Shown one piece after another: positions 37,989-54,760 of a stretch of DNA of 54,912 nt (position 1 is the first letter of the stretch; each line of letters opens with the position of its first letter). A model generated the notes under the pieces. It was not told the DNA's origin. It ran no database searches and saw nothing but the letters and a program-made list of their open reading frames with translations. The position numbers and the translations under genes were made by a program. Source of the stretch: an uncultured Anaerolineae bacterium (GTDB lineage: Bacteria > Chloroflexota > Anaerolineae > Anaerolineales > Villigracilaceae); NCBI GenBank assembly GCA_903846015.1, contig CAIMZS010000534.1, positions 1 to 54,912 on the forward strand, read 5' to 3'.

Positions 37989-38009
37989 CTTCCATCGTTG
38001 GAGAGTTTT

Positions 38010-38414: not shown

Positions 38415-38428
38415 GGCCATCCCGACAC

Positions 38429-38517: not shown

Positions 38518-38530
38518 AAAGGATGATTAG

Positions 38531-39841
38531 ATGAAGTTAACACGTATTTTCGCAATCACAATCATAACTCTTCTCAGCATGACCGTCATCACGGGTGTTT
38601 CCAGGGCCGCCGGCCAGGGCACATCTTCAGTAGCGCAGGCCGCCACCGCAACCCCTGTCAGCACGCCTGAGCCTGCCGCCACTCCAACAGACCTGACCAA
38701 TATCCATGCCACTGGCGGGGCAGATAGCTGCATGATGTGCCACGGCCACAAACAACTTCAGGGCGTTACCGCCAACCTGGATCACATCGAATTGTCGATG
38801 TCACCAACCGATTTTCAAACCTCCGTCCACGCTAAAGCCGGGCTGAGCTGTACATCCTGCCACGCCAACAAGGAACAGTACCCGCACAGCGATCGCGTCC
38901 AGGTAACATGCACTGAATGTCACCCGGCCATAAATTCTTCCGGCGAGAAAAACGCCCCCGCCATCAATATCGACAACCTGCCAGCCGTTTCGGTCAAGGT
39001 TCCCTTCGAAAGCAAGCGCAAGATGGTCATCAAGCTGAATGACGCCTGCCGCTCCTGCCATGAACAGGAGTTCGCGGTCGCTTCCGACAGCGCCCACATG
39101 CGCGTGCTCGCCAGCGGAAACGAAGAAGCCCCCCTGTGTGTGGATTGTCACGGCAGCCACAACGTCCAGCCACCAGCTCAGCCGCGCTCCAAGATCGCCA
39201 AAACCTGCGCAACCTGCCACGAAGCGGTTTACTCATCCTACAAATCCAGTGTGCACGGCGCAGAACTGGCAGATGGCAACCAGGATGTGCCAACCTGCGT
39301 GGACTGCCACGGAGTTCACAGCGTCCGCGGACCGCGTGATACCAATTTCCGCAATGACAGTATTGTCATGTGCGGCAACTGTCACGGCAACAAAGCCCTC
39401 ATGAGCAAATATGGCATTTCGGCAGACGTGTTCAACACCTATGTCGATGACTTCCACGGGCGCACCGTCAACCTGTTCCGTGAACAAGATCGCGGCATCT
39501 CCAGCACCAAAGCAGTATGTTTTGACTGCCACGGCATCCACAACATCCGCAAACCATCCGATCCGCTTTCATCCGTCAACCCGGCCAATCTGATGAAGAC
39601 CTGTCAGCAGTGCCACCCAGACGCGAATGAGCGCTTCTCTGGCGCCTGGCTGGGGCACTACACCCCCGATATCAAGAATATGCCCGTCCTGTATGGTGTC
39701 AATCTGTTTTACCAGATCGTCATCCCTGGCACGCTGGGCTTTTTCGCAATCTACATCGCCCTGGATGCGCGCAAACGCTGGGCTGAAAAACGTGAATTGG
39801 TGCTCAAGTCTCTTGAAGAGGAAGACGATGACAATGAATAA
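38531..39841 (+). CDS. Membrane-anchored decahaem c-type cytochrome
   Basis: The 436-aa protein has an N-terminal signal or anchor helix (6-26), a Thr/Pro linker, and ten CxxCH haem sites: CMMCH, CTSCH, CTECH, CRSCH, CVDCH, CATCH, CVDCH, CGNCH, CFDCH, CQQCH. The later sites carry CHG-xx-H patterns that can provide distal histidines. A C-terminal transmembrane helix (about 383-405) and an acidic tail follow. It probably passes electrons across the outer face of the membrane, paired with the cytochrome b encoded next, whose start overlaps its end. No catalytic residues of known nitrite or hydroxylamine enzymes were recognised. Confidence 0.88.
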   Translation: MKLTRIFAITIITLLSMTVITGVSRAAGQGTSSVAQAATATPVSTPEPAATPTDLTNIHATGGADSCMMCHGHKQLQGVTANLDHIELSMSPTDFQTSVHAKAGLSCTSCHANKEQYPHSDRVQVTCTECHPAINSSGEKNAPAINIDNLPAVSVKVPFESKRKMVIKLNDACRSCHEQEFAVASDSAHMRVLASGNEEAPLCVDCHGSHNVQPPAQPRSKIAKTCATCHEAVYSSYKSSVHGAELADGNQDVPTCVDCHGVHSVRGPRDTNFRNDSIVMCGNCHGNKALMSKYGISADVFNTYVDDFHGRTVNLFREQDRGISSTKAVCFDCHGIHNIRKPSDPLSSVNPANLMKTCQQCHPDANERFSGAWLGHYTPDIKNMPVLYGVNLFYQIVIPGTLGFFAIYIALDARKRWAEKRELVLKSLEEEDDDNE

Positions 39842-40733
39842 TCCCTCCGCCCCCGCCCCCATCCGATCGAAGGCTGCCGACGAACAAATCGAACGAATGA
39901 AGAAGCACACCCGCGCTGTTCGGATGCGCAGCGCGCTGGAACTGGCCGATCGGCTGCGCATCATGCCGGATGGCACGCGCATGTTTGCACGGTTCAACCG
40001 CGCTGAGATTATTGAGCATTGGGTTTTGCTGGTTTCCTTCAGCACCCTGGGCTTGACAGGCCTGCTCCAACGCTATGCGGGCGTCTATATCATTAGCCTG
40101 TTGATTAATATCGTCTTTGGCGGTATTGAGACTCTGCGCGTCATTCATCACCTGGCCGCGATTATCTTCATTTTGCAGAGCATTTATCACGGCTTCAAGA
40201 TCCTGTACTTCTGGTTTGTGAAGCGTGAAATGGGATCCATGTTCCCAATGTTCAAAGATCTGACCGATATGATTGGCATGATTAAATACAATGCCGGTCT
40301 GTCAAAACAGAGGCCGCAGTTTGACCGTTACACCGTCGAAGAGAAGCTCGAATATTGGGCTTTGATCTGGGGTACGCTGGTGATGGGGTTGACTGGTTTG
40401 ATGCAGTGGTTTCCCACCATTACCACCCAGTACCTACCCGGCTCGGCCATCCCGATTGCGCGCGTGGCTCACAGCCTGGAAGCAGTGCTGGCGGTGGCAG
40501 CGATAGCCATGTGGCATATGTATCATTCGGTTGTCAAGGAAAAAAATCAAAGCATTTTCAGCGGATTTATGAGTGAACATGAGATGCATGAAAATCACCC
40601 CCTTGAATATCAGCGCATCCTGGCTGCCTATGACCACATCCAGAAAGTTAAAAGTGGCGCAGAAGCCCGGCATCATGCGGCGCCTGCTGTAAATATACCT
40701 GAACAGCCTGTGTCTGAACCAACACGGCCCTAG
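39828..40733 (+). CDS. Di-haem cytochrome b, b561/formate-dehydrogenase-gamma type
   Basis: Integral membrane cytochrome b of 301 aa with four hydrophobic helices (about 66-86, 108-128, 185-205, 218-240). Histidines suitable as haem b ligands are in EHWVLL, VIHHLAA, IYHGFK, AHSLEA and WHMYHS. This layout is typical of quinone-linked membrane subunits that donate to or accept from periplasmic cytochromes. The start at 39828 overlaps the decahaem gene by 14 bases and has GAGGA upstream; ATG 39834 is also possible. The upstream extension of the frame to 39627 is a shadow of the decahaem gene. Confidence 0.85.
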   Translation: MTMNNPSAPAPIRSKAADEQIERMKKHTRAVRMRSALELADRLRIMPDGTRMFARFNRAEIIEHWVLLVSFSTLGLTGLLQRYAGVYIISLLINIVFGGIETLRVIHHLAAIIFILQSIYHGFKILYFWFVKREMGSMFPMFKDLTDMIGMIKYNAGLSKQRPQFDRYTVEEKLEYWALIWGTLVMGLTGLMQWFPTITTQYLPGSAIPIARVAHSLEAVLAVAAIAMWHMYHSVVKEKNQSIFSGFMSEHEMHENHPLEYQRILAAYDHIQKVKSGAEARHHAAPAVNIPEQPVSEPTRP

Positions 40734-40750
40734 CACATCAATTTACGGAA

Positions 40751-40838
40751 GTCCCGGTTCCCGCACGAGACCGCCGTAAAACGGAGCATCATGAAATCAC
40801 CTCAACCAACCAACGATAGTGCCGGATCTAGCACTGCC
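40751..40838 (+). repeat. Two repeat copies flanking the start of the NapC-like gene
   Basis: GTCCCGGTTCCCGCACGAG (40751-40769) lies before the gene and GATAGTGCCGGATCTAGCAC (from 40815) lies inside its first codons, where it encodes DSAGSST. Both are variants of the CCGGTTCTAGCAC family. Confidence 0.6.
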
Positions 40839-42326
40839 ACTGCCACTGCCACGGCCACCGTCAAAAAACATCGCCGCTGGCCAAAACTTACGATTGATCT
40901 GGGCAAATCCAAGCATCGTCTGAACTTGCTGCTGGCTGTTCTGACACTTTTTGTGGTTGGGATTGGGTTGGCGGCTGGCGGTATCAAGGGCTATGAATAC
41001 ACTGAGAGCCGTGAATTTTGCGGTACCACCTGCCATTCGATGGATCCGCAATGGATACGCTACCAGATCTCTCCGCATGTTAATGTGCCATGCGCTGCCT
41101 GTCATGTTGGTTCAGGCGCCCAACACTTTGTTCAATCCAAGATCGATGGTTCGCGCCAGTTGGTAGCCACCATTTTCAATAATTTCAGCCGCCCAATCAA
41201 GAGCCCGGTCAAGAACCTGCGCCCGGCCCGCGATGTTTGCGAATCCTGTCATACCCCCACCAGCTTCAAAGACAACATCGTCCGCAACATCCTGCATTAC
41301 GATAATGACCAGGCCAATACCCCCATCATGACATCTTTGATCCTGAAGATGGGCGGCGTGCAGGAAACCACCGGGCACAGCCTGGGTATTCATTGGCACA
41401 TCAGCGGCAAGGTTTTTTACATCGCCTCCGATGATCAGCGCCAGGTAATGTTATGGGTTGGGGTCCAGCAGCCGGATGGCTCGCTCAAGGAATATTTTGC
41501 CCGCGATTTAATTGGGATGGGCCAGATGACCTTTGTGGAAAAGGCCCGTCAGGAAGGCAGAGTGCGTGAGATGGACTGCATCGACTGCCATAACCGCATT
41601 GCCCACAATATTCCTTCCCCAGAGCAATCGGTTGATAAAGCCATCGAAGACGGGCTTATTTCCCAAAGCGTCCCGTTCGTGCGCGCAAAAGCGGTCGCAG
41701 CACTGAAGGCCAAATATACCAGCAAGGCCGAGGCTTACAATGCTTTCGATAAGCTCACCGAAAGCCTGCAAAGCAGCACCAGCATGGTGGATAGTTCCCA
41801 GGCCAGCAAAGCTGTCCAGGAAATCAAGAAGATTTACGATGTGACCGTCTTCCCGGAAATGAATCTGGATTGGGAGACCAACCCGAATAATTCACGCCAC
41901 AGCCCTTCACTCGGCTGCTTCCGCTGCCATGATGGCAATCACATTCTATCCACACCAACATCCAGCAATGCCAGCCAGGTGATCAGCGTAAAATGCAATC
42001 TGTGCCACACGGTGCCGATCATCGGCCGCGGCAGTGAAATGCTGGTCGAAGCGCCCGTCATCGTCGGCGCCCCGCCGGCCACGCACAACGATTTCCGCTG
42101 GACCATCGAACATCGCACGACTACTGATGCCCAGCGTGTGGTTTGCTTGAACTGCCATGGCAGTGGTTTCTGTAACAACGGCGCCTGCCACAACCTGTCA
42201 CACCCTTCCAATATGGCCTTTACACATCCAAAGGAAATTGCAAAAACAGGTGATCAGGTTTGTTACACCTGCCACCAAAACGTGACGTGTACCCGTTGTC
42301 ACCCAGGCGGCGTAGTCAAGAACTAA
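40791..42326 (+). CDS. NapC/NirT-like multihaem c-type cytochrome
   Basis: The 511-aa protein has a Ser/Thr-rich cytoplasmic start, one transmembrane helix (about 45-66) and a NapC/NirT-like haem domain starting with CGTTCH-SMDP and CAACH-VGSG. Nine CxxCH sites are visible (CGTTCH, CAACH, CESCH, CIDCH, CFRCH, CNLCH, CLNCH, CYTCH, CTRCH), where the first is CGTTCH read as C-GT-TCH spacing, and one CNNGACH (CX4CH) lies at 42171-42191. It is probably a quinol dehydrogenase or relay that feeds the other cytochromes. The ATG has CGGAGC upstream. Confidence 0.85.
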   Translation: MKSPQPTNDSAGSSTATATATATVKKHRRWPKLTIDLGKSKHRLNLLLAVLTLFVVGIGLAAGGIKGYEYTESREFCGTTCHSMDPQWIRYQISPHVNVPCAACHVGSGAQHFVQSKIDGSRQLVATIFNNFSRPIKSPVKNLRPARDVCESCHTPTSFKDNIVRNILHYDNDQANTPIMTSLILKMGGVQETTGHSLGIHWHISGKVFYIASDDQRQVMLWVGVQQPDGSLKEYFARDLIGMGQMTFVEKARQEGRVREMDCIDCHNRIAHNIPSPEQSVDKAIEDGLISQSVPFVRAKAVAALKAKYTSKAEAYNAFDKLTESLQSSTSMVDSSQASKAVQEIKKIYDVTVFPEMNLDWETNPNNSRHSPSLGCFRCHDGNHILSTPTSSNASQVISVKCNLCHTVPIIGRGSEMLVEAPVIVGAPPATHNDFRWTIEHRTTTDAQRVVCLNCHGSGFCNNGACHNLSHPSNMAFTHPKEIAKTGDQVCYTCHQNVTCTRCHPGGVVKN

Positions 42327-42330
42327 CCCG

Positions 42331-42392
42331 CGACGTGGCAATCTGCCCGCTGTCATTGCGAGGAGCGTGCTTTCCGCGACATGGCAATCTGA
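42331..42392 (+). repeat. Dispersed GAGGAGC-type repeat, copy 3
   Basis: A partial unit (GCGACGTGGCAATCTG) is followed by a full unit (TGTCATTGCGAGGAGCGTGC, then TTTCCGCGACATGGCAATCTGA). It fills most of the gap between the NapC-like and TPR genes. Confidence 0.7.
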
Positions 42393-42443
42393 ACTAAGGA
42401 TTTCGCGGATTAGTGCAAGATCAAGAGCAAGTAGGAGCTTGGA

Positions 42444-43385
42444 ATGAAGTGGAATTTGAAAGATATTCTTAATGATACGCACCAATTGACTCGCATCACC
42501 ATCCTGACCGGGGTAGTGTTGGTACTGGCTGTGCTTAGTTTTGGTGGATATTACTATTATGATCGCTATTACTCAACTCAACCCGCCCAAGAGAAAATGA
42601 CACTGGCTGAGGCTGAGCAAGCCGTCCGGGATGATCCACAAAATGTGGAAAAGCGCTTAGTGCTGGCTGAAAACTATATGATTAACAGCCGTTTTCAAGA
42701 AGCGGTTTCACAGGCAGATCAAGTACTTGCGAGCCAGACAGAAAACCAGCATGCTTGGCTGATCATCGGGGTCTCGAATAACATGCTCGGAAAACCGGCT
42801 GATGCAATTGAGCCTCTCACCAAGTTTATTTCAGCGCGTCAGGATGAAGATAACGCCGGGCTGGACCAGCAGCTGGTCAGCGCAGCTTATTATCTGGGTG
42901 ATAGTTATTTGCAAATGGGCAAATCGCAGGAAGCCATCGCACCGCTGCAGATGTCGGTTCAATGGAGCAAAACGGATGCCGATGCCATGTACAAACTCGG
43001 GCTGGCTTATTCAGGCATCAAGGATTACACCAACGCTGTCAATATGTTTCACGGTGCTACCACCTTTGTGCCCGATTTCCTGGAAGTCTACCAGGCCATG
43101 GCCCAGGCCTATGACGCCTTGCAAAAACCGGTCCTGGCCAGCTATGCGCGCGGCATGATCAATTACTCAGAAAAAAACTATGCCGGTGCGCTGCCAATCT
43201 TGCTCAAGGCGGCGGAAGGCGACCCGGGCTTTGCGCCCACATTTGTCGGGCTGGGGCGCACGTATGAGGCCCTTAATGATCTGCAAAACGCCAAGAGCGC
43301 CTACGAAGCCGCTTTTAAACTCGATCCAAACAATTTTACTGCTTCCAACGGCATTGACCGTGTAACTGCCGCTTTGAAGAAATAG
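42444..43385 (+). CDS. Membrane-anchored TPR protein
   Basis: A 313-aa protein with one N-terminal transmembrane helix (about 15-35) and a series of tetratricopeptide repeats over about 50-310 (VEKRLVLAENYMINSRFQEAV, DADAMYKLGLAYSGIKDYTNAV, APTFVGLGRTYEALNDLQNAKSAY-type units). It probably serves as an assembly or docking factor for the surrounding exported cytochromes, similar in topology to CcmH/NrfG-like TPR proteins, though it lacks a haem-ligation domain. AGGAG is 6 nt before the ATG. Confidence 0.82.
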   Translation: MKWNLKDILNDTHQLTRITILTGVVLVLAVLSFGGYYYYDRYYSTQPAQEKMTLAEAEQAVRDDPQNVEKRLVLAENYMINSRFQEAVSQADQVLASQTENQHAWLIIGVSNNMLGKPADAIEPLTKFISARQDEDNAGLDQQLVSAAYYLGDSYLQMGKSQEAIAPLQMSVQWSKTDADAMYKLGLAYSGIKDYTNAVNMFHGATTFVPDFLEVYQAMAQAYDALQKPVLASYARGMINYSEKNYAGALPILLKAAEGDPGFAPTFVGLGRTYEALNDLQNAKSAYEAAFKLDPNNFTASNGIDRVTAALKK

Positions 43386-43394
43386 GTGAATAAG

Positions 43395-44612
43395 ATGACT
43401 GTTCCGGAAAACCAAGAACCCGTATCCCCATCGGCACTACCTGAGCAAGAACTGAACCTGGAAAAAGAAGAACGCAAGCGCCGCACCATTTTGTTGATCC
43501 TGCTTGTGCTGCTATCCCTGCTGTGCTGTGTCGGCTATTTCATCGTCCGTTACATGGTAAAACCGCAGCCCATCACTCAGATCATGCCAATCATCAACCA
43601 GGCGGTCTCATACCCCCCTACTTATAAATTTGCCATTCTGGGTGTTGACAAACCATTGGGGGTGGCGCTTTCACCCGATGGGCAGCGCATCTACGTCACT
43701 GAATCAGGTGGTGAACGCTTGATCAAGATGTTTGACCGCCAGGGCAAACTGCTCAACAGTTTTGCGCCTCCCGGAACCAACAAATCAAACCGCAGTCCCA
43801 CCTATATCGCGATAGATTCCGGCGGGCGCGTGTTTGTCACCGATTTGTATAACGGGATCATCGATATATTTGACGCGGATGGCAATTCGCTGGATGCCAT
43901 CATCGATCAGGATATGACCCTCAGCAAGTTTGTCAGCTCCCAGATCAATGCACCCCTGCCAGCCAGTCTGACCTATTTCTATGACAATATCCGCCGCCAG
44001 GTGTTTTATCAACCGCTCGGCCAGGCAACCCAGTCCTTTCCCGCCCCGGAACGCAAAGAATGGGCTCCCTTGGGCGTGCGCTTTGCCAAAAATGGCGACC
44101 TGCTGGTCACTAACCTGGTAGCTGGCAAGCACGGCGTTTTGATTTTCCCGGCAGCCGACATTCAGACTCCCATGGATAAATTCAATCCGCAGGTGCGGCA
44201 GTTTGGCGCGGAAGGCCAGGGCAGCGGGCAGTTGTCGTTTCCAAACAGCGCCGTGACCGACAGCAAAGGTAATTACTTTGTGGCGGATGGCAACAACGCC
44301 CGGGTCTCTTTCTGGACTGCGGATTTGATGTATCGCTCGTTCTTCGGTTTTGGCTCTGCCGAAAGTGCGCTGAATCTACCGCGCGGCATGTGGATGGATC
44401 CGAGGAATCATCTGCATGTGGCGGATGCGGTTGGGTCGGTCGTGCGTGTTTACGATGTCTCGGTGCCAGAACCAGCCTTTTTATATGATTTTGGCCTGAT
44501 CGGCAACTCTGATGGACAGTTTAGCTACCCCAATGATGTTTGCGTCGATAACTTTGGGACTGTCTACATCGCCGACCGGGAAAACAACCGTATTTCCATT
44601 TGGTCTTACTAG
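43395..44612 (+). CDS. Membrane-anchored NHL-repeat beta-propeller protein
   Basis: A 405-aa protein with a charged start, a transmembrane helix (about 29-52) and an extracytoplasmic beta-propeller made of NHL-type repeats (PLGVALSPDGQRIYV, PTYIAIDSGGRVFVTDLYN, FSYPNDVCVDNFGTVYIADRENNRI). NHL proteins of this kind frequently accompany multihaem cytochrome clusters; a scaffold or docking function is inferred. ATG 43395 is preferred over the GTG at 43386 because AGGTG precedes it at good spacing. Confidence 0.85.
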   Translation: MTVPENQEPVSPSALPEQELNLEKEERKRRTILLILLVLLSLLCCVGYFIVRYMVKPQPITQIMPIINQAVSYPPTYKFAILGVDKPLGVALSPDGQRIYVTESGGERLIKMFDRQGKLLNSFAPPGTNKSNRSPTYIAIDSGGRVFVTDLYNGIIDIFDADGNSLDAIIDQDMTLSKFVSSQINAPLPASLTYFYDNIRRQVFYQPLGQATQSFPAPERKEWAPLGVRFAKNGDLLVTNLVAGKHGVLIFPAADIQTPMDKFNPQVRQFGAEGQGSGQLSFPNSAVTDSKGNYFVADGNNARVSFWTADLMYRSFFGFGSAESALNLPRGMWMDPRNHLHVADAVGSVVRVYDVSVPEPAFLYDFGLIGNSDGQFSYPNDVCVDNFGTVYIADRENNRISIWSY

Positions 44613-44615
44613 TGA

Positions 44616-44694
44616 CCGGCTGCAAAAAGCAGTCGGCGCTGTTTGATGGGACACAGCAACAGGGCCATTTCGTCCCGGCATTACCTGTTACAGG
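44616..44694 (+). ncRNA. Candidate structured leader RNA
   Basis: Between the NHL gene and the hexahaem cytochrome, a hairpin CCGGCTGC/GCAGTCGG (44616-44636) is followed by interleaved pairs: GCTGT 44638-44642 with ACAGC 44653-44657, GGGAC 44648-44652 with GTCCC 44672-44676, and AACAGG 44658-44663 with CCTGTT 44684-44689. The crossing pattern suggests a pseudoknot. No known riboswitch was recognised. Confidence 0.3.
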
Positions 44695-44781
44695 AGGTGA
44701 GTTTTTAACAAAGTAGCTCCATGCAATACCGGACCCAGACCCAAACTGATTCTGCTATAAAAATACAAGGAGAATGACGTT

Positions 44782-46161
44782 ATGAAGAAACTTTTAATCG
44801 CACTGGTTTTGGGGCTGCTGTTGGTGGCAGCCCTGGCGACAGTGGCCTCAGCCGACAACGGCCCGCACGGCGGCTTCACCGCATCCACGGATGCCTGCGC
44901 CGGTTGTCACCGCCTGCACTCCGCCAAATTCGGCAGCAATTCACTGCTCAAACAGGCCGATGTTGAAGCGCTGTGCTTGAGCTGCCACGGCGGCTCCGGC
45001 GCCGGCACCAACGTTAAGGACGGCGTCTACACTACTGGCGCTGAAGGCACTGCGGGCGCCTCGCTCATGGGCGGCGGCTTCGATAATGCCCTTATGGCAA
45101 CTGCCTGGAGCGGCAAAGCAACTTTCGATGGCACCTACAGCGCTTCATCCAAAGCCACCACATCGCACCACACCCTCGGCCAGGATACCGCCACCATTTG
45201 GGGATCGGGCGCCAACGGTACAGTCAGCGGCACCATGGTTCTGGAATGCACCTCCTGCCATGATCCGCACGGCAATGCCGGTATTTCGATCACCGCTGGT
45301 GTCTCCACCCGCGTGGCTTCTTATCGCCTGCTGCGCTGGCAACCCCAGGGTTCAAGTGGCTTCACCGCCCCGACCGCCCCGACCGCCACGGTCAACTGGT
45401 CCGGCGGCGCTTTCCCAACTTCCACCTTCGCTTCCGGGAACACGAGCGGTTGGTTGGTGCCCGATAACTTCGCATCCAAGGGCACCGAATGGTACACCAT
45501 CGGCACCACCAGCTCTTTCGCGGCGGGTGACTACAATGCCAATAACGCCAACAACGTCTACAACCCCAAGATTAATGCTGCTGGAACCACCAAAAGCTAC
45601 ATTTCCGATGGCATCAATGTGGCCTATTTCTGCGCGCAGTGCCATGACCGCTATTTCAACAACAGCAAATTGCGCAGCTCCACCGATGCAAGCACCCGCT
45701 GCGGTACGCCGGTGCTTGCCAGCGCCTCTGCCACCCTGCCCTACGTAGCAGCCGTTGGCGGCGTTCATCCAACCTATCCGGATTGCCAGCGTGTCACAGA
45801 TGCCACAACTGGCCTGCTGACTGGTTGGGGCGATAACGGACCCAGCGGCGATGCTACCTACATGTTCCGCCATACCTCCGGCGACATCCGCCTCTCCGTG
45901 GACGGAACCAGCGCCGCTGGTGCAGGCACTTCCCTCAGCCGAAGCTGCGTGGCCTGCCACGTAGCCCATGGCACCTCTGCTGCAGCCAATGTCGTCGATG
46001 ATCCCGCCAACCCCGGCACAGATTTTAATGCCGGCGTCGCTGACTCTGGCTCAGTATCCGGCGGTTCTTTGGCCGGCGGCAGCGTCCTGCTGCGTATGGA
46101 TGGCCGCACAATCTGCTTGCGCTGCCATGCCAGCAATGTCAACTTCACAGTTGGCCCGTAA
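44782..46161 (+). CDS. Secreted hexahaem c-type cytochrome with doubled-CXXCH motifs
   Basis: The 459-aa protein has a signal peptide (hydrophobic 5-19, cleavage after ASA near 24) and six CxxCH sites: CAGCH and CLSCH near the N-terminus, CTSCH, CAQCH, CVACH and CLRCH. The pairs CxxCH-xx-HSAK and CxxCHGGSG-GTN match the doubled-CXXCH family. Long Gly/Ser/Thr-rich stretches separate the sites. There is no membrane anchor at the C-terminus, so it is probably released or part of the cell surface. AAGGAG lies 9 nt before the ATG. Confidence 0.85.
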   Translation: MKKLLIALVLGLLLVAALATVASADNGPHGGFTASTDACAGCHRLHSAKFGSNSLLKQADVEALCLSCHGGSGAGTNVKDGVYTTGAEGTAGASLMGGGFDNALMATAWSGKATFDGTYSASSKATTSHHTLGQDTATIWGSGANGTVSGTMVLECTSCHDPHGNAGISITAGVSTRVASYRLLRWQPQGSSGFTAPTAPTATVNWSGGAFPTSTFASGNTSGWLVPDNFASKGTEWYTIGTTSSFAAGDYNANNANNVYNPKINAAGTTKSYISDGINVAYFCAQCHDRYFNNSKLRSSTDASTRCGTPVLASASATLPYVAAVGGVHPTYPDCQRVTDATTGLLTGWGDNGPSGDATYMFRHTSGDIRLSVDGTSAAGAGTSLSRSCVACHVAHGTSAAANVVDDPANPGTDFNAGVADSGSVSGGSLAGGSVLLRMDGRTICLRCHASNVNFTVGP

Positions 46162-46713
46162 TCGCTTTTTAGAACACCAACACGGAGGGGAGGACGCGGC
46201 CCAACGTCTTCCCCTCCAGCACCACAAGTAGCACCCGTGATAAGCGCTCACCTCCGGTTTTGAAAGTCTCAGCATGCCCCCTGTCGCTCCGGGTCCGAGC
46301 ACAGTCTGGCATGCAGCTTTCACGGTAAATAACCTGCAACAGCAGGGACATGGCAGTACCATCGCCGCTTCATCGCCGCCACTGTCATGTCCCTGCGGGA
46401 AATCCTGTTCTTGTAGTGTGCCTGAACCACCTCGCGATAGTCCCGGTTCCCATTGTCATTGCGAGGAGCGTGCTCTCCGCGACGTGGCAATCTGGTTTAC
46501 CCGCGGGTATTAACCCGGTGTCCTGCGGGAATGACAACGAACTTCCTTCGTGCTCTTTGCGATAGTCCCGGTTCCAGCACGAGGTGTCCTTCGTGGTAAA
46601 AAGTTTATTCTCTAATCAACGACCTGGGCGTAACTTACAGGTCCGAAACAATCTAAAATCTGCAATCGTTATTAATACCTGCCATTCAATTCTGTAGTAA
46701 ATGTGAGCTGCTT
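46162..46713 (+). other. Intergenic region with hairpins and repeats
   Basis: About 550 bp with no gene. A 13-bp hairpin at 46184-46217 follows the cytochrome stop codon and may terminate transcription, although it lacks a T tract. A second, 16-bp imperfect hairpin lies at 46342-46396. Copies of both dispersed repeat families occur at 46434-46450, 46452-46493 and 46557-46584. Confidence 0.6.
46452..46493 (+). repeat. Dispersed GAGGAGC-type repeat, copy 4
   Basis: ATTGTCATTGCGAGGAGCGT, then GCTCTCCGCGACGTGGCAATCT. Best-preserved copy in the window. Confidence 0.7.
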
Positions 46714-49700
46714 ATGAAATTGATGAAACCTCCATTCCGCCGTAATTTTCGTGCAACAGCGCGCCTTGCGCTGGCTGGTGTGCTGCTTTTAAGCCTCATC
46801 CTCCTGCCAGTCAGTGCGCAAGCTGGCCTCAATGCTGCGGGCAAAGATCCACTGTGGGGCGCCAGCCTGAAGGATGTTCCGGGATGGTTGGTGATGGCTA
46901 ACAACCCGTCCAAAATTTACAGCGAATATGATCTGGCAGAATTGGCATCACGGCTGATTATCTACCGCCAGGTGGATGCCAGCGGCTGCCCCAGTGGTGG
47001 CTTGAAGAAAAACGGCTCCGCAAATACATGCGGTATGCAGCGCGCCCAGTCGGCTGTCTTTGAATGGCAGAACCGCTTCAATGCAGGTATCATCGAAACA
47101 TCCAACCAGACTGGCATCCCACCCATTCTGCTTAAAAACATCTTTGCCTGGGAAAGCCAATTCTGGCCTCAAACCATCTACGTGAATACCTTTGAATATG
47201 GTTTGGGTCATATCACCGAAATGGGCGCAGATTCGGCCTTGCGCTGGAATGCACCGTTTTACGATCAAATTTGCGCCGCAAGTCTTTCCAGGGTAACCTG
47301 CAAGAAGGCCTATGTCGACCAACCCGATTCGATCCGCGCCAATCTGCGCGGTGTTGTGCTCCAACAGGTCAGAGCAGACTGCAGTGGATGTCAATTCGGC
47401 CTGGATATGCCGATGGCTGGCCGCAGTATTCCCGTTTTTGCCCAAACCCTTCTCGCCAATGCCACTTTTGTTAAAGGATATATCTCCGGATTAACCGGTC
47501 ATCCGGCCGCTCAATCGGTCGGTTACGAAGATTTGTGGAAATTTACCCTCACCAGTTATAACGCCGGGCCAGGCTGTTTTATGACGGCTTTTTCTCGTAC
47601 GCTCGGCAGCGGATTAACCCTGACATGGAATAATCTTTCTGCGCAGCTAGATCCGGGCTGCGCGGGTTCCCGCACTTACGTCGAATTTATCAGCCAGAAA
47701 AATCATTACAATCCCGCCCATGATCCTGGCTTGCTCGTCCCCACTCCCACGACTGCCGCTCCGACAGCCAGCGCTACGGCGCTGCCCCCAAGCAGTGAAA
47801 CTCCATCGCCCACCGCTACCCTGAGTTCAACAGCGGATGTTTCTGCCACCGTGGAAAGCACCCAGGATCTCACTTCCACAGCCACGAGTACATCTCTGGA
47901 TGGAACAGCCACCCTGCCAGGCGTCCCAACTGATCTTTCCACTCCGCTGGCAAGCGCAACTCCATCAGACCCCGGCACCGAAACTGCGACTGCGACCGCA
48001 ACTCCAACCCTGTCTGGGAGCGAAACCCCAACACAGACGGTCACCGCCACAGAAACGGCCACGGCTACAGCCACCGAGACAAACACCGCCACTGCGCAGC
48101 CAACGGCCACTCCCGAAAGCCTGGCCAACCAACTACAGCAGCCGCACGTCACCAATGAAGTAGTATTAAAGATCAACTCAAACAACCGCCAGGCAGCGCT
48201 TGATACTCTTAACAACCTGGGAATCAGCCTGAGCCAGGACAGCAGCACGATTGAATCACTCGACACCCTGATCATTCAGGTTGAGCCAGCCCAGCTGGAA
48301 GGTGTATTGGCGGCCTTACAGGCCAGCGGTGGTGTGGAATTTGCCGAGCCCAATTACCTGGCAGCCCTGGCAAGCACGCCCAATGACCCGGAATACCCGC
48401 GCCAGGGCAACCTGGAATCCATCCAGGTTCCGCAAACCTGGGATGCCCTGCCCTCCATGCAGGAAGTGTTGGTGGCCGTTATTGATACCGGTGTGGACAG
48501 CAAACACCCCGATCTGGCCAACAGCATGTGGCAAAACGCCGGTGAAATTGGACTGGATATTAACGGGAACGATAAGAAAAGCAACGGCATCGATGATGAC
48601 AACAATGGTTACATCGATGACTGGCAGGGCTGGAACTTTGTGGACGGGAACAATAACCCCGCCGATGACCAGGCGCACGGCACCCATCTGACGGGTATCA
48701 TTGCCGCGGGTGTAAACAATGGCTTCGGCATTGCTGGCATCGCCCCCAATGCGCGCATCCTGCCGGTAAAAGTACTCGATAAAACCGGCTACGGCAGCTA
48801 CGACCAGGTAGCAGAAGGTATCGTCTACGCGACCGATATGGGCGCGCGTGTGATCAACCTGGGGTTTGGCGGCACCGGTTCAAGCGAACTGCTGCAAAAC
48901 GCCGTCGATTACGCCCTGGCCCATAATGTGCTGGTAGTTGCCTCGGCTGGCAATGATGGCAAAGCCACCACCTATTATCCGGGCGGCTACCCAGGCGTAT
49001 TAGCCGTCAGCGCCGTGGATAATAACGGTTATTGGGCCAACTTCTCTTCCAGCGGCGATCACATCAGCCTGGCCGCCCCCGGTTTGGGCATCTACTCCAC
49101 CACGCCCGGTGGTTTCTACCGCAGCATGTCCGGAACTTCGATGGCTGCCGCGCAAGTCTCCGGTGTGGCCGCCCTGCTGGCCAGCCAGCCGCAGTTTGCG
49201 GACGCCAATACACTGCGCTCTGCTCTGATCGGCGGAGCGCTCGACCGCGGCAATCCCGGCAAAGACGCCTTCTTTGGATACGGGGTTGTACAGGCCTTTG
49301 GGGCGCTGGGCTATGCCGGGCCGGTACAGCCCACAGCAACACCCTGGATTGTGCCCACATCCACCCCGGGCGGCACTGCTGGGGTAAACGCTATGGACAT
49401 TGTAAACCTGTGGGGACGCACACAAACTTCTTCGTTTGCGCTTATCGATCCGGGCAACATCGATCCGGGTATCAACAGCATCGACAGCGCGTTCAACGAC
49501 CTGTTGACTTCCAGCACAGGCGGTTGGGGCAGCTCCACCCGCGCCTGGACTTTTACCAGTTTTGACCATACAACCTTTACTTCGGTTGCCACCGTTAATA
49601 TTGATCTGCGCTACTATGCAACCGGTTGGGTAAACGATACCTACTACGTCCAGGTATACGAACCGACCAGCACTGACACGGCCTGTACGACCAACCTGGG

Positions 49701-51204
49701 TTGGTGCACCCGCTACACCCTGAAATTCGCGGTGACCCTGGCGAACGAATCTCGACCCGCTGCAACCTTGAGCACGATCACCTTTGATGTATCCAACTTG
49801 CTGGATACACCCGCCAAAATCAATAATGCCCAGGTGCGCATCGTCGGGGCCAGTCTGACTTATGGTTCCACCGACAATGTCACATTTTATATTGATGAAG
49901 TCCAAATGCGTGTCCTGGATGTGCTGCCTCCTACCGCCACACCCACCAGCACACCGGTCTTTATCCCCACATCCACCTTGCCGCCAGCCCGCGCCATCAC
50001 CGCAACCCCACAGTCTGGCGAGCCACATAACCACTTCTCCCTGGCCAACACGGACCAATGCGCCGTTTGTCATCGCGGCCACTCTGCCAAATCCATGCAG
50101 ATGCGCGTCAAGACCGGAGAAGAACAGGTCTGCTTTAACTGCCATACCAGCGGCGGGACAGGTACTAATGTACAGCCAGCTTTCACGCTGCTGTCCAACA
50201 GCCTGACACGCTTCTTCTCTCACCCAATCAGCAACACGGTCAATATCCACAATATCGACGAGAATGGGGGCGGTAGTTTTGGCGGTGGTAACCGGCACGT
50301 CGAATGCGAAGATTGTCACCAGCCTCACAGCAGTTCACGGACAATCTCCGGTGGCAGCAATCCGGCCCCAATGATCCAGCAGGAAATGGCTGGTTCAACC
50401 GGTGTCGAACCAAACTGGACTGTCGCTGGCCCAGCCAGCTCATTCACCTGGCTGCAAAAAGCGGATAAAGAGTTCCAGTTGTGCTTCAAGTGTCACTCCG
50501 CCTTCGCTGTCAGCCTGCCCACCTATGTCCCGGATGGTTATGGCTGGGATGTGACCACCTCCACCTACGGCTATATTTCAAATGGGCTGCCCAAACTTGG
50601 CAACAGCAGCGGCAATCAGGTCGCCGACAGCCGCGACCTGGCAAAAGAATTTAACTCCTTCCAGGTCAGCTTCCACCCTGTTGCAGCCCTTGGACGCAAT
50701 CGCCAGATACCCGACGGCAGCTTTGTGAGCGGCTGGTCGATGGATTCGATCATATCCTGCGGTGATTGTCACACCAACAATGCCCCCAGCCTGGGCGCAA
50801 ATGGGCCGCATGGCTCTGCACTGGTGCACATCCTGGATGGCAGCTCCAACTACATCACCACCACTGACCCGGGTTCTCAAGACCCGATCCACAACACCGG
50901 CGAATTGTGCTTCAAGTGTCACCAATACAATACCTATGCCGCAGATGTTAATCCTGCCACCACCACGCGCTTCAAGAATGGTGCCACAAACCTGCATGCC
51001 TTCCACAACTTTGCAGCCTGCTACACCTGCCATGACACCCACGGCAGTGAACAGGATCGCCTGATCAACTTCGATACATCCGAAGTGGGCGTTCTCGGGA
51101 ACAGCCAGAACGCCTGGCAGTTCGACCCAACCATCAATACCGGCACCTGCGCCATAGCCTGTCATGGCGCCGATCATGGCCAGTCCTTCCAATATCACCC
51201 ATAA
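46714..51204 (+). CDS. Secreted fusion: lytic-transglycosylase-like domain, subtilisin-type protease and multihaem cytochrome domain
   Basis: A 1496-aa exported protein with a signal peptide (to about 37). Residues about 90-330 resemble an SLT-type lytic transglycosylase (Glu147 in FAWESQFWP, YGLGHITEMG). A Thr/Pro/Ser-rich linker covers 335-475. Residues 478-560 look like a subtilisin propeptide and 585-850 form an S8 peptidase with Asp591 (DTGVDSKHPD), His655 (HGTHLTG) and Ser809 (SGTSMAAAQ). A beta-rich domain spans about 885-1070. The C-terminal 390 residues have seven CxxCH sites from Cys1116 (CAVCH, CFNCH, CEDCH, CFKCH, CGDCH, CFKCH, CYTCH) and one CX3CH at 1479-1484. It may open or remodel the wall for, or mature, the neighbouring cytochromes; this is inference. 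Confidence 0.85.
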   Translation: MKLMKPPFRRNFRATARLALAGVLLLSLILLPVSAQAGLNAAGKDPLWGASLKDVPGWLVMANNPSKIYSEYDLAELASRLIIYRQVDASGCPSGGLKKNGSANTCGMQRAQSAVFEWQNRFNAGIIETSNQTGIPPILLKNIFAWESQFWPQTIYVNTFEYGLGHITEMGADSALRWNAPFYDQICAASLSRVTCKKAYVDQPDSIRANLRGVVLQQVRADCSGCQFGLDMPMAGRSIPVFAQTLLANATFVKGYISGLTGHPAAQSVGYEDLWKFTLTSYNAGPGCFMTAFSRTLGSGLTLTWNNLSAQLDPGCAGSRTYVEFISQKNHYNPAHDPGLLVPTPTTAAPTASATALPPSSETPSPTATLSSTADVSATVESTQDLTSTATSTSLDGTATLPGVPTDLSTPLASATPSDPGTETATATATPTLSGSETPTQTVTATETATATATETNTATAQPTATPESLANQLQQPHVTNEVVLKINSNNRQAALDTLNNLGISLSQDSSTIESLDTLIIQVEPAQLEGVLAALQASGGVEFAEPNYLAALASTPNDPEYPRQGNLESIQVPQTWDALPSMQEVLVAVIDTGVDSKHPDLANSMWQNAGEIGLDINGNDKKSNGIDDDNNGYIDDWQGWNFVDGNNNPADDQAHGTHLTGIIAAGVNNGFGIAGIAPNARILPVKVLDKTGYGSYDQVAEGIVYATDMGARVINLGFGGTGSSELLQNAVDYALAHNVLVVASAGNDGKATTYYPGGYPGVLAVSAVDNNGYWANFSSSGDHISLAAPGLGIYSTTPGGFYRSMSGTSMAAAQVSGVAALLASQPQFADANTLRSALIGGALDRGNPGKDAFFGYGVVQAFGALGYAGPVQPTATPWIVPTSTPGGTAGVNAMDIVNLWGRTQTSSFALIDPGNIDPGINSIDSAFNDLLTSSTGGWGSSTRAWTFTSFDHTTFTSVATVNIDLRYYATGWVNDTYYVQVYEPTSTDTACTTNLGWCTRYTLKFAVTLANESRPAATLSTITFDVSNLLDTPAKINNAQVRIVGASLTYGSTDNVTFYIDEVQMRVLDVLPPTATPTSTPVFIPTSTLPPARAITATPQSGEPHNHFSLANTDQCAVCHRGHSAKSMQMRVKTGEEQVCFNCHTSGGTGTNVQPAFTLLSNSLTRFFSHPISNTVNIHNIDENGGGSFGGGNRHVECEDCHQPHSSSRTISGGSNPAPMIQQEMAGSTGVEPNWTVAGPASSFTWLQKADKEFQLCFKCHSAFAVSLPTYVPDGYGWDVTTSTYGYISNGLPKLGNSSGNQVADSRDLAKEFNSFQVSFHPVAALGRNRQIPDGSFVSGWSMDSIISCGDCHTNNAPSLGANGPHGSALVHILDGSSNYITTTDPGSQDPIHNTGELCFKCHQYNTYAADVNPATTTRFKNGATNLHAFHNFAACYTCHDTHGSEQDRLINFDTSEVGVLGNSQNAWQFDPTINTGTCAIACHGADHGQSFQYHP

Positions 51205-51213
51205 GGTCTAACC

Positions 51214-51298
51214 TGGAACGGTGGGAGAACCACCGTTCCAGAATATTCTCTGAGGGAAGAGCCAAATACTGAGGGCTGCCGGGCCGGCAGTCCTCAGT
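51214..51298 (+). terminator. Two hairpins after the fusion gene
   Basis: A perfect 11-bp stem (51214-51224 with 51230-51240, loop GAGAA) is followed by a second near-perfect stem at 51268-51298 with one G-U pair and then TTGGTTTTA. The second is the better terminator. Confidence 0.65.
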
Positions 51299-51340
51299 TG
51301 GTTTTAGATTGTCTGAAGCGCAGATTTCGACGATTACGGC

Positions 51341-51419
51341 GGCCGTGCTAGAACCGGCACTATCGCAGATTAGAGCAAGTGCGAGAGCTAGAACCGGGAC
51401 ACGGCGATTGTTGATCGCC
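51341..51419 (-). repeat. Inverted copies of the CCGGTTCTAGCAC family
   Basis: GTGCTAGAACCGGCACTATCG (51345-51365) and GAGCTAGAACCGGGACACGG (from 51385) are reverse-orientation copies, followed by a GGCGATTGTTGATCGCC hairpin at 51403-51419. Confidence 0.65.
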
Positions 51420-51487
51420 AATCGATGCAAGAATTATTCTGGATGCCTATACTCCAAAATCTGAAATAGACGCCGTGGAGGTAATTT

Positions 51488-54400
51488 TTGGATAAGATAA
51501 GTAAATACTGCGATGCGCTGATGGAATCAGCCTGGCTTTTGGCCCTGATCGTCACACCGTTGTTTTTTATGGTTGAGGCCTTCCGCGTTTCCGATGGCAG
51601 TAAAATTTTTGTCTTCCGCTCATTCGTCTGGCTTGCGCTGGCTGCCTGGCTGATAAAGGGGCTTGCGCTGGCCGGTCCCGGTTTCCAAAATATTCAGTGG
51701 CGGCGCAGCGCCAACCGAATAAATATCCTCAAGCTATTTCGTGATCAGCCCGTCCTTATTCCAACCGCAGGACTGCTATTCGTCTACCTGATCTCGACTA
51801 TGTTCTCGATCTCCCCCCGCACCAGCCTGATGGGCTCCTACACCCGTTTGGAAGGTGTGGTCACCCTGGTCACTTACCTTATCTTTTTTGTTCTACTGGT
51901 TTTCAACCTACGCACCCGTGAACAAATCGACCGGATGGCGGCAGTCCTGGCGACAGTATGTTTCAGTATCGATGGTTATGCGCTGCTGCAACATTTTCAC
52001 ATGGACCCGTTTTACTGGCCGGAAGTCGAAGCAAGCTCGCGTGTCATGTCTACGCTTGGCCACCCCATCTTTGCGGGGGCTTTTCTGAGTATGGCTACTT
52101 TTATCATCCTGCCGCGGGCAATCCTGGCCATTCAAGCCTTCCTGCTCTCTAGCCAACCGGACCCACGCTCTGCAAAAGGACTTCCCACCCGGCGCACTGC
52201 CGATTCTCGCACGGCGATAGTGCCGGTTCTAGCACGGCCGATAAATCGCCGTGTACCCGGATTAAACGATTTGATCCAGGCGCTGGTTTACAGCCTGGTA
52301 TGCATCTTAAATCTTGCATCGATCTGGCTCACCATCAGCCGGGGCCCGCTGCTGGGTTTATTCAGCGGCATGGCATGTTTTCTGGTACTCTTCCTGCTGA
52401 AATGGCGCTTAAAACGGATTCTGCATATCACACTGGCAACTGGAGCAGTTCTTTTTACGCTGCTGGTCGTTTTAAACATCCCATCTGGCCCGCTGCAAAG
52501 TTTGCGCGACAAGCCGGGCATTGGTCCACTCGGCCATCTTCTTGATGCCGAGACAGGTACCGGACAGGCGCGCATCCTGATCTGGCAGGGTATGGCGCAG
52601 CTGACCGGTCCGCACGCGCCATTGTCGTTCCCCGATCAGACAATTGACAGCATGAACCCCATCCGCTGGTTGGTAGGGTACGGCCCGGATGTGCTCAATA
52701 TGGCTTACGAAGGTTTTTACAACCCTGAATCGTATGTACTCGAAGCGCCTAATATCCTTTACGACCGTTCGCACAATCAATTTTGGGACATTTTAAGCTT
52801 TTATGGCCTTCTGGGGCTGCTAGCCGAATACGGCCTTTTTCTAAGCTTGTTCTACGTTGCCTTGCAGCAGCTGGTTTTAATCAATACCGGACAGGAACAG
52901 AAACTTTATTGGTTATTATCCATTGGGGGCGGCCTTTTGGGGTTCCTGCTGCCGCTGCTGATCTCCAAACCAGCATATATCGGTATTTCTGCACATCTCG
53001 GATTACTGGCCGGCCTGGTTGGAATAATGATCCGCGCCATCTTCCAACCACGCGACTCCATACCGGCAAGCCACCATCCTGCTCTTATCATCATCATAGG
53101 CCTGCTTGCCGCCCTGATCTCAAATTATGTTGAGCTATCAACAGGGATTATGACAGTTACATCCAGCCTGCTGTTCTGGGTCTGCTCGGCCACCCTGCTG
53201 AGTATTGGCCAAAACAAAATTCAAGAACTGGAAGCAACGACCGGCAGCTCCAATGCGCAGCTTTCAATCCAAAATGAATTGAGGCAGGTTGGAATAAATT
53301 CAACCATTCTTTGCCTCTTGCTGGTAACCATTGGAACAAGATTTATTGAAAATTTTCAAAACAGCGGTGATGCTGGAACGGTCTTAACCGATGCCCTGAC
53401 AACCATCTCAAATCCCACGCGCCAATCCTCTCTTGGAATACTGGCGCTGTTGATCGGCAGCCTGTTCGTTGGAGCGTTATTGCTACAGACCGGAACACCC
53501 AGGGGGCAGGCACCAAACTGGAAAAACATGCTCGCCTCCTCGGGCTTCGCCCTGATTGTCTCTGTAATCATTTTGCTGATTCGCGCCAGCCAGTTCGCTG
53601 GTCTCGGTCAAGCCAATTCCAACGGCGGCGATACGCTCGCGTTAATAAGCGAATGGAATGGACTTACGGCAACTGTGTTCTTTGCGCTGATCCTGTTTCT
53701 CGTGTTGATGGCCTACTTCCTGGCATTTACCCAATTCACGGCGATAAATCGGCGCGCTATTGCTCTGGGTCGAACCAATTCGTGGGCTCTGTTCTCCTGG
53801 GCTGTCCTGGCTCTGTTTTGCGCATGTGCAGCAATACTGTCGGTGGTCACATTAAACTTGCGTCCTTTGCAAGCTGACATCCTGTATGCAAAGACATGGT
53901 CAAAAACCAATGCCCGCGATTTTGGCGCCGCGGCGTTGATTTTTGACCAACTAATAGTGATGGCGCCAACCGAGCCGGATTACCAACGCTTTGCAGACAA
54001 GCTGTACATTGGCATGATCTCGAATACTGCCAATGACAATGAAAAAGAACGTTATTACACGGCCGGGATCGAACATGTAAAAACAGCGAATGCGCTTGAA
54101 CCCTTGCTGGTATCCAATACGATGGCCCTGGCTGAATTTTACCGGCTGGGCGGAGAAATAACGCGCGATCCAGCCTTAAGGGATGTTCGTTTCTTATTAG
54201 CCAATACGTATTATGCCGCCGCCCTAAAGATCAAACCCAGCCGCGTGGATTACTGGCTGGGATGGGCAAGTTTATGCGCTTCAAAAGGGGATATTGCCTG
54301 CGCAACCGATAAAATCGACTCAGCCCTGGCAGCGAACAGCAAAGCTGAATCAATTTACCAGTTTACGGGCGATTTATTTTCTGTTTACGCCAGCAGCATT

Positions 54401-54760
54401 ACCGAGCCAGGCGCCCGCACACAGGCCTTCACCACGGCCCTGAAAGCATATCAAACCGAGGCGGATCTACTGACCAACAAAAACGCCAATCCAGTTTTGG
54501 CATTTCTCGGCATGGGCAATGTGTACGAAAATTTAAAACAGGTTGACCAGGCGCGGGCAGCTTACCTCCAGGCAGTCCAATTCGGGAATGATTCACCCAA
54601 CTCGCCAATCAGTTGGCAGGTATACCAGCGCATCGCCGTGTTATCATCCGAATTAAAGGACCCGCTCATGCAGCGTGAATACCTGCAAAAAGCGATTGCC
54701 TCGGCACCCGATGATCAAAAAGCGGCCCTGAATGACCAGCTCAACAAACTGACCCCCTGA
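51488..54760 (+). CDS. O-antigen-ligase-like polytopic membrane protein with C-terminal TPRs
   Basis: A 1090-aa protein starting at TTG 51488 with GGAGGT just upstream. About fourteen or more hydrophobic helices fill residues 10-800; the region near 395-450 (GYGPDVLN, DRSHNQFWDILSFYGLLGL) resembles the Wzy_C/O-antigen ligase signature. Residues about 810-1085 form tetratricopeptide-like helices. Such proteins join or export surface glycans or glycosylate exported proteins. Two palindromic repeats are read through in frame (residues near 239-256 and 752-762), in a cytoplasmic or loop region. The link to the preceding cytochrome genes is only by position. Confidence 0.75.
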   Translation: MDKISKYCDALMESAWLLALIVTPLFFMVEAFRVSDGSKIFVFRSFVWLALAAWLIKGLALAGPGFQNIQWRRSANRINILKLFRDQPVLIPTAGLLFVYLISTMFSISPRTSLMGSYTRLEGVVTLVTYLIFFVLLVFNLRTREQIDRMAAVLATVCFSIDGYALLQHFHMDPFYWPEVEASSRVMSTLGHPIFAGAFLSMATFIILPRAILAIQAFLLSSQPDPRSAKGLPTRRTADSRTAIVPVLARPINRRVPGLNDLIQALVYSLVCILNLASIWLTISRGPLLGLFSGMACFLVLFLLKWRLKRILHITLATGAVLFTLLVVLNIPSGPLQSLRDKPGIGPLGHLLDAETGTGQARILIWQGMAQLTGPHAPLSFPDQTIDSMNPIRWLVGYGPDVLNMAYEGFYNPESYVLEAPNILYDRSHNQFWDILSFYGLLGLLAEYGLFLSLFYVALQQLVLINTGQEQKLYWLLSIGGGLLGFLLPLLISKPAYIGISAHLGLLAGLVGIMIRAIFQPRDSIPASHHPALIIIIGLLAALISNYVELSTGIMTVTSSLLFWVCSATLLSIGQNKIQELEATTGSSNAQLSIQNELRQVGINSTILCLLLVTIGTRFIENFQNSGDAGTVLTDALTTISNPTRQSSLGILALLIGSLFVGALLLQTGTPRGQAPNWKNMLASSGFALIVSVIILLIRASQFAGLGQANSNGGDTLALISEWNGLTATVFFALILFLVLMAYFLAFTQFTAINRRAIALGRTNSWALFSWAVLALFCACAAILSVVTLNLRPLQADILYAKTWSKTNARDFGAAALIFDQLIVMAPTEPDYQRFADKLYIGMISNTANDNEKERYYTAGIEHVKTANALEPLLVSNTMALAEFYRLGGEITRDPALRDVRFLLANTYYAAALKIKPSRVDYWLGWASLCASKGDIACATDKIDSALAANSKAESIYQFTGDLFSVYASSITEPGARTQAFTTALKAYQTEADLLTNKNANPVLAFLGMGNVYENLKQVDQARAAYLQAVQFGNDSPNSPISWQVYQRIAVLSSELKDPLMQREYLQKAIASAPDDQKAALNDQLNKLTP
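52205..52252 (+). repeat. Compound palindromic repeat inside coding sequence
   Basis: CACGGCGATAGTGCCGGTTC, TAGCACGGCC and GATAAATCGCCGTG are joined in one unit. It encodes the run RTAIVPVLARPINRRVPG of the ligase-like protein and keeps the frame open. Confidence 0.7.
53738..53762 (+). repeat. Second in-frame palindromic repeat in the same gene
   Basis: CACGGCGATAAATCGGCGCG followed by CTATT. It encodes TAINRRAIA, similar to PINRRV at the first site. Confidence 0.6.

Follow-up and report, generated by a model that had tools for sequence, protein, structure and literature searches.

What function might a single exported protein serve by joining a putative wall-cutting domain, a subtilisin-like protease and a multihaem cytochrome? 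This question is raised by a gene in contig CAIMZS010000534.1 (assembly GCA_903846015.1) of an uncultured Anaerolineae bacterium of the family Villigracilaceae (Chloroflexota); the whole stretch of DNA analysed, 54,912 nucleotides of the forward strand, is referred to below as the window. The gene, at 46714-51204 on the plus strand, is translated in one stop-free frame into 1496 amino acids, in which Glu147 of a transglycosylase-like domain, the protease triad D591/H655/S809 and eight haem motifs were all located, as claimed in an initial annotation made from the sequence alone. The protein is composed of the following parts:

46714..51204, plus strand: fusion protein, 1496 amino acids (signal peptide, SLT-like domain, propeptide, S8 protease, beta-rich domain, octahaem cytochrome)
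46714..46824, plus strand: signal peptide, residues ~1-37, delimited by eye
46879..47697, plus strand: GH23/SLT-like domain, residues 56-328, with the Glu147 codon at 47152-47154
47716..48117, plus strand: linker rich in Thr, Pro, Ser and Ala (72% of residues 335-468)
48118..48393, plus strand: fervidolysin-like protease propeptide, residues 469-560, with predicted autocleavage at ~553/554 (~48372/48373)
48439..49314, plus strand: peptidase S8 (thermitase-like), residues 576-867, with D591, H655, N747 and S809
49378..49926, plus strand: 'mid' domain, residues 889-1071, beta-rich according to a very low-confidence model only
50029..51201, plus strand: octahaem cytochrome domain, residues 1106-1496, with 7 CXXCH motifs and 1 CX3CH motif

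Additional Thr/Pro-rich linkers occupy residues 868-890 and 1072-1106; together with the linker at 335-468, these could give the protease more places to cut. From stop to stop, the frame extends from 46657 (1515 codons), and the ATG at 46714 places a typical export signal at the N-terminus, with the six most hydrophobic 19-residue stretches beginning at residues 14-19. Frame 1 of the opposite strand is interrupted by stops; a different antisense frame runs without a stop over 442 codons (49000-50328) and was not judged to be a gene. The GC content of the parts of the fusion is 52-62%, compared to 54% for the window.

The N-terminal domain is GH23/SLT-like, of the predicted wall-cutting type, an assignment that is carried by the alignment of the entire family rather than by the score of the window protein. 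The alignment includes the window domain and those from 26 of the 35 loci with this N-terminal domain, that is, 12 fused SLT domains and 15 taken as stand-alone (L010, with an internal stop, and 8 other loci were excluded; here and below, L numbers designate loci and G numbers the genomes searched). Glu147 is invariant in all 27 rows, the GLGxxT-like and YNAG-like stretches are kept with some substitutions, and 26 of the 27 domains reach E<=0.1 with Pfam SLT, the best of them 3e-7. We take the diagnostic motifs of SLT domains to be a catalytic glutamate within an ES motif, a GLxQ-like stretch and a YNAG-like stretch. When the modelled domain (predicted local distance difference test score, pLDDT, 71) was compared with the PDB using Foldseek, the 29 top matches were lytic transglycosylases (E>=0.068, TMq 0.31-0.37). 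Many genomes of the family also encode a stand-alone SLT-like protein of ~550 codons that lacks haem motifs and has an additional N-terminal half (L007-L030, for example, L008:694-2322).

The protease is readily recognizable. Pfam Peptidase_S8 matches residues 584-857 with E 1.5e-59 (202 bits, with a cut-off of 21.8), the Pfam fervidolysin propeptide matches residues 470-547 (E 2e-6), and the S8 domain aligns with thermitase at E 1e-54, with a TPNDP region at the N-terminus in common. All 17 S8-bearing fusions detected (see below) retain both the Asp-His-Ser triad and the propeptide match, and 15 of these contain the oxyanion asparagine (Asn747 in the window). Subtilases are synthesised with a propeptide that the enzyme itself removes. 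Because thermitase residue 2 aligns with fusion residue 555, a cut is predicted at ~553/554, between the SLT half and the S8-cytochrome part, and self-cleavage of the fusion near this site is plausible.

The C-terminal domain carries CXXCH motifs at residues 1116, 1140, 1198, 1257, 1349, 1399 and 1436 and a CX3CH motif at 1479; among 2000 shuffles of the protein, the maximum was 1 CXXCH (mean, 0.01), and Pfam doubled CXXCH matches the fusion with E 1.6e-10. All eight haem sites, including CX3CH, are present in 11 of the 11 rows of the octahaem alignment; in a wider set, the eighth site is missing from G085, G086, G588, G004 and the cut-off G887. The octahaem domains end in a short conserved tail, His ... 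Tyr-x-Pro (window 51160-51201), with Tyr in 11 of 11 rows and the final Pro in >=90%. A profile of the 11 octahaem domains yielded 7 PDB matches up to E 1, none of them named OmcZ. The candidate relationship with OmcZ or OmcS is unsupported, the best matches being photosynthetic reaction centre cytochromes (0.011) and cytochrome 7tfs (0.013).

Is this protein peculiar to one assembly? The whole fusion protein was searched in 61 related genomes, and its cytochrome part in 152 genomes of the family, 400 of the order and 400 of the phylum, along with a profile search in 396 genomes of the class; these draws overlap. Altogether, 11 three-part frames (SLT, S8 and cytochrome) were identified in 10 genomes, the window's included. 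The initial annotation had named a frameshift or assembly join between the domains, and domains that are always separate genes in relatives, as observations that would count against its claim; the recurrence of one-frame fusions in other genomes disposes of both, and the same fusion indeed lies beside multihaem genes in other Chloroflexota.

Within the family, the cytochrome domain is matched strongly (E below 1e-68) at 16 places, which are spread over 15 genomes from five genera. Ten of these encode SLT, propeptide, S8 and cytochrome in a single frame; in G001, SLT, S8 and cytochrome are split over two contigs that share sequence at their ends; in G085 and G086, S8 and cytochrome are present and the contig breaks off before the N-terminus; G166 and G137 contain pieces of the fusion at contig ends; G092 is considered below. 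An eleventh one-frame fusion, in G004, has five CXXCH motifs and a diverged cytochrome. The cytochrome comes in an 8-haem form (the window, G083, G017, G088 and G001) and in a form with 15 CXXCH (G136, G127, G149, G135, G163, G085, G086 and a second copy in the window's genome). This second fusion (L091, G000:C360, 10097-16495) has 2133 codons and is preceded by a hexahaem gene. Three of these loci also exist as public contigs (JAADGN010000038.1, JACRMH010000061.1 and JACRBH010000062.1), whose records give Chloroflexota or Chloroflexi bacteria as the source.

Outside the family, 13 strong matches were examined (a fourteenth, G833, with three stops in the match, and weak partial matches were excluded), and SLT was found in none of the 13. 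Ten of the frames are informative, and three of these contain propeptide and S8 but no SLT (G610, G1051 and G887); the frames of G800, G948 and G1067 are cut off. Nine more distant octahaem proteins lack SLT and S8 (G895b, G805b, G1066, G928, G842, G959, G635, G588 and G437), and similar gene clusters surround eight of the nine, the ninth (G588) being cut off. The 'mid' domain is present in S8-less relatives as well.

The domains have distinct histories. In the SLT tree, the fused domains are separated from the stand-alone ones (98/95), and the one seeming exception, L039, is the front half of the G001 fusion itself. In the S8 tree, the 17 fused domains all fall on one side of a branch, opposite 21 stand-alone ones, with modest bootstrap (64/95). 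On the cytochrome tree, at least 7 changes are needed to explain the distribution of S8 and at least 6 that of SLT (a row truncated at a contig end was not scored as missing a trait, and G004 was left out). Furthermore, in approximately unbiased (AU) tests on 14 rows, including 7 of the 8 fifteen-haem rows, with each tested group named from the tree of the other domain, the grouping of the window with G001, G136, G127 and G163 in S8 is incompatible with the cytochrome data (p 2.1e-5); conversely, the 15-haem grouping is incompatible with the S8 data (p 0.004). Identity between the window and G136, G127 and G163 is 37-39% for SLT, 70-72% for S8 and 46-48% for the cytochrome. Because the protease and cytochrome histories conflict, by the AU tests and by these identities, the fusions must have exchanged modules.

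The gene neighbourhood points to the context in which the fusion potentially functions. In the window, it is the last gene of a cluster, all on the same strand, and is followed by two hairpins:

38531..39841, plus strand: decahaem cytochrome, 10 CXXCH
39627..40733, plus strand: cytochrome b561-type membrane protein (the frame overlaps the previous gene, and the true start is probably further downstream)
40791..42326, plus strand: NapC/NirT-type cytochrome, 8 CXXCH, likely quinol dehydrogenase
42444..43385, plus strand: TPR protein
43386..44612, plus strand: NHL-repeat protein
44782..46161, plus strand: hexahaem cytochrome (its family has a possible relationship to OmcS)
51213..51241, plus strand: terminator-like hairpin with a 12-pair stem, directly 3' of the fusion gene
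51268..51298, plus strand: second terminator-like hairpin, with a 14-pair stem

A hairpin scan of 38000-51600 gave 22 sites, compared to 14.2 +/- 4.1 in shuffles, and the two hairpins after the fusion have the longest stems; no promoter-like plus-strand site was listed in the gap preceding the fusion. The complete gene order (decahaem, b561, NapC-type octahaem, TPR, NHL, hexahaem, fusion), with 1-3 genes of 6-7 CXXCH ahead of the fusion, is found in G083, G149, G163 (where the first gene is cut) and G001, and is kept as far as the stretches extend in G017, G088, G136, G127 and G004; in G135, the NapC frame is not listed. Each of the 15 S8-bearing fusion loci for which upstream sequence is available, including the two-contig G001, has a hexahaem-like gene ahead of the fusion. 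In other families, TPR, NHL and hexahaem genes precede the octahaem gene in 7 of the 8 loci whose upstream sequence extends far enough (G336, G895, G805, G1051, G1044, G1090 and G610). The exception, G201 (L093, 9767-12461), has a reduced cluster with a NapC frame containing 2 CXXCH, TPR, and a lone octahaem frame that overlaps the TPR frame.

Some clusters continue beyond the fusion: in G083, G136, G127, G166 and G137, the fusion or its piece is followed by frames with 9-13 CXXCH (L079 16243-17259, L083 15278-16393, L084 4088-5281, L078 2503-4527 and L085 779-2866; none is present in the window). Across the class, such clusters also hold frames of 431-527 codons with 15-16 CXXCH, a very high haem density (L129 7986-9566, L130 6370-7662, L131 5408-6700 and L136 7292-8767). 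Among the 10 open reading frames (ORFs) searched in the neighbourhood of the fusion (34145-54760), there is neither a further terminal reductase domain nor a prolyl isomerase gene. A NarX/NarQ-like sensor kinase and a LuxR-type regulator are encoded upstream of the cytochrome cluster (35289-37719), and an O-antigen-ligase-like (Wzy_C) protein with a TPR tail beyond both hairpins (51488-54760). Farther away, a minus-strand frame at 6251-10030 combines a type I phosphodiesterase/nucleotide pyrophosphatase, a metallophosphatase and a 5'-nucleotidase C-terminal domain.

The hexahaem neighbour, with 6 CXXCH, belongs to a family that may be remotely related to OmcS. When a profile of 17 hexahaem-type proteins was compared with the PDB, OmcS was the top match (whole-sequence E 5.3e-11). 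This score derives from two stretches that overlap in the profile; the better stretch alone gives 1.8e-7, with a bias correction of 21 bits, and aligns four haem motifs in order together with a common CHDPHGK stretch. The next PDB family, octahaem nitrite reductases, was matched at 1.3e-6, a level that generic multihaem likeness can reach with this profile, and a single-sequence search with the hexahaem protein gave no cytochrome relative better than E 0.6. The proposal of the initial annotation that the fusion places a haem wire thus draws some support from this possibly OmcS-related gene next door. GSU2505, considered as a possible NHL gene adjoining omcS, was dropped from the comparison, as the literature calls it a hypothetical protein only.

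A search of the genome for Omp85 found none, the same search being positive in 7 of 14 named control genomes. A genome without Omp85 fits a monoderm bacterium whose electrons must traverse peptidoglycan, and passing electrons through peptidoglycan from a single-membrane cell would provide a reason for the SLT part. In addition, the OzpA-OmcZ pair of Geobacter sulfurreducens, a subtilisin-like protease and an octahaem extracellular cytochrome with proteolytic maturation, offers a precedent for a subtilase that matures a wire cytochrome, as far as the sections of these reports consulted go (PMC9473688, PMC11208441, PMC10874420). We tentatively propose, as a possibility that falls somewhat short of probable, that the fusion acts at the surface, crossing the wall, as part of a gene cluster for extracellular electron transfer in probably single-membrane Chloroflexota, and that it brings its own wall and maturation enzymes. 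Under this scenario, electrons would pass from the quinone pool to the b561/NapC-type pair and the decahaem cytochrome, then to the hexahaem cytochromes and, finally, to the octahaem fusion. The SLT part would locally loosen the peptidoglycan and let the haem chain through; S8 would free itself near 553/554, leaving the SLT half behind, and might then trim linkers or hexahaem subunits, the OzpA-OmcZ principle within one chain. It is unlikely, in our estimate, that this single gene amounts to a self-building exit port, one that bores through the peptidoglycan, undergoes autoproteolysis, matures OmcS-like subunits and remains as the haem contact at the surface, with a protease chassis recombined with at least two kinds of cytochrome (8- and 15-haem).

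Several observations weigh against the proposed role. Pfam SLT scores only 14.1 bits with the full window protein and 19.3 with the domain, below the cut-off of 21.3. The model of the mid and cytochrome part, from 4 sequences, is unusable (pLDDT 30), and the best Foldseek E of 0.068 is weak backing for the SLT fold. Two of the 17 S8 domains lack the oxyanion asparagine. In the PDB profile search, the octahaem domain has no recognizable kinship to a known wire cytochrome, and the OmcS match of its neighbour depends on brief stretches dense in CXXCH, is heavily corrected for bias, and is followed at 1.3e-6 by octahaem nitrite reductases. The gap between the hexahaem gene and the fusion is ~550 bases in the window and 77-592 across six loci, and a single transcript is only assumed. 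The genome bin, in 662 contigs, has 5.85% contamination.

The protease is also not needed in every relative. G092 lacks S8 but encodes SLT and cytochrome; 7 of the 10 informative frames from other families contain neither enzyme (G201, G336, G443, G895, G805, G1044 and G1090). We considered whether S8 is simply a neighbouring gene in such relatives and rejected this explanation: none of the 8 S8-less loci inspected contains a separate S8 frame (G443 has <200 bases upstream, and the search covered these loci rather than the rest of the genomes). Given the S8-less relatives, the octahaem protein can have the protease but does not strictly require it. The earlier interpretation is supported in part, as regards one exported three-part protein beside multihaem genes. 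Because relatives outside the family occur without either enzyme, the octahaem protein is the broadly distributed part; S8 and SLT look like additions, with repeated loss as the alternative possibility.

This distribution bears directly on the strongest alternative, in which the octahaem domain is the working part, a terminal reductase at the cell surface in the manner of OcwA, and SLT and S8 help it to reach the surface and stay clear there, with no maturation of wires. The octahaem domain is constant while the N-terminal parts come and go, as the changes counted on the cytochrome tree indicate, and the neighbouring ORFs searched offer no other terminal reductase. The protease, however, is also kept as a unit, 8- and 15-haem fusions having closely similar S8 domains (72% identity between the window and G136, compared to 48% for the cytochrome), and we consider this alternative somewhat unlikely. 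A surface-tethered digestive or lytic enzyme, with SLT and S8 acting on foreign walls, proteins and debris and the cytochrome serving as an anchor or passing electrons on, would account for the intact catalytic residues in both hydrolases and for the presence of S8 and N-terminal SLT proteins as separate genes in many of these genomes. Such a role appears quite unlikely given the hexahaem-like gene upstream of every S8-bearing fusion with upstream sequence and the clustering of fused SLT and S8 domains away from the stand-alone ones. Even less probable is an arrangement in which both enzymes help to build a wire from the hexahaem cytochrome next door, with the octahaem domain as no more than the base plug of that wire. 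The 1-3 hexa- or heptahaem genes upstream, of the family with OmcS as its top PDB match, would suit such a role, but the alignment to OmcS matches no more than four haem motifs in order, all of them within a single stretch, polymerisation is unreadable from sequence, and the hexahaem genes are kept in relatives without S8 or SLT. Finally, an assembly or frameshift artefact, which the fragmented and partly contaminated bin might have suggested, is rejected as hardly conceivable, because the same three-part frame recurs in 10 genomes, in several of them deep in long contigs (G136, 168 kb; G127, 72 kb; G163, 185 kb), and its parts are only 37-72% identical between the window and these three.

The role in extracellular electron transfer that we favour would matter for several reasons. 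Little is understood of the way in which electrons are passed across peptidoglycan in bacteria that lack an outer membrane, and OzpA-OmcZ is the one worked example of protease-driven release or maturation of wire cytochromes met in the literature excerpts cited here. With a wall enzyme, a propeptide-bearing subtilase and a cytochrome in one chain, both steps become testable in a single protein, and a series of naturally occurring variants that have or lack each enzyme can be compared. The fusion also provides a marker gene, with a defined cluster, for electron transfer in uncultured Chloroflexota.

All of the parts are of known kinds; as far as we have seen, the combination, the gene cluster and the modular variation are new. 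No description of an SLT-S8-multihaem fusion was found among the open-access literature matches listed, judged on titles, the beginnings of abstracts and passages, in line with the initial annotation, whose author knew of no described protein with this combination. The SLT-like domain resembles the GH23 lytic transglycosylases MltF, MltE and MltC, the best Foldseek matches, in the catalytic Glu and the SLT-like motifs, and differs from these in its weak E-values, several invariant cysteines and the junction with a protease and a cytochrome. The protease resembles thermitase-type subtilases with a fervidolysin-like propeptide, including the shared TPNDP terminus, but is located between an SLT-like domain and a cytochrome. 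The likeness to the nanowire cytochrome OmcS concerns the neighbouring hexahaem gene, not the fusion; four haem motifs and CHDPHGK are shared, and the putative relation is remote.

Closer to the host, Anaerolineales from bioanodes are reported, in the text consulted, to encode large multihaem cytochromes with varying haem numbers, to have no porin-cytochrome complexes and to lack a Gram-negative envelope (PMC7399161). The main text of that report contains none of the terms protease, subtil- or peptidase; its Figure 5, an alignment of large Anaerolineales cytochromes, could show proteins related to the fusion. OcwA of Thermincola, a Gram-positive metal reducer, is comparable in that electrons pass through a peptidoglycan wall, and no enzyme fusion is mentioned in the parts of the reports consulted (PMC6703420, PMC7911101). 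The OzpA-OmcZ pair, for which homologous operons are described in archaea and Borgs (PMC9473688, PMC11208441, PMC10874420), differs in architecture. In the portions of these reports consulted, no SLT domain is mentioned, and protease and cytochrome are separate genes with the C-terminal part cut off, whereas the fusion is one chain with the protease N-terminal; in addition, the PDB matches of the octahaem profile do not include OmcZ, and there is no prolyl isomerase among the ORFs searched. What the two systems have in common, going by those same portions, is the pairing of a subtilase with an octahaem extracellular cytochrome, which in the fusion is realised within a single polypeptide.

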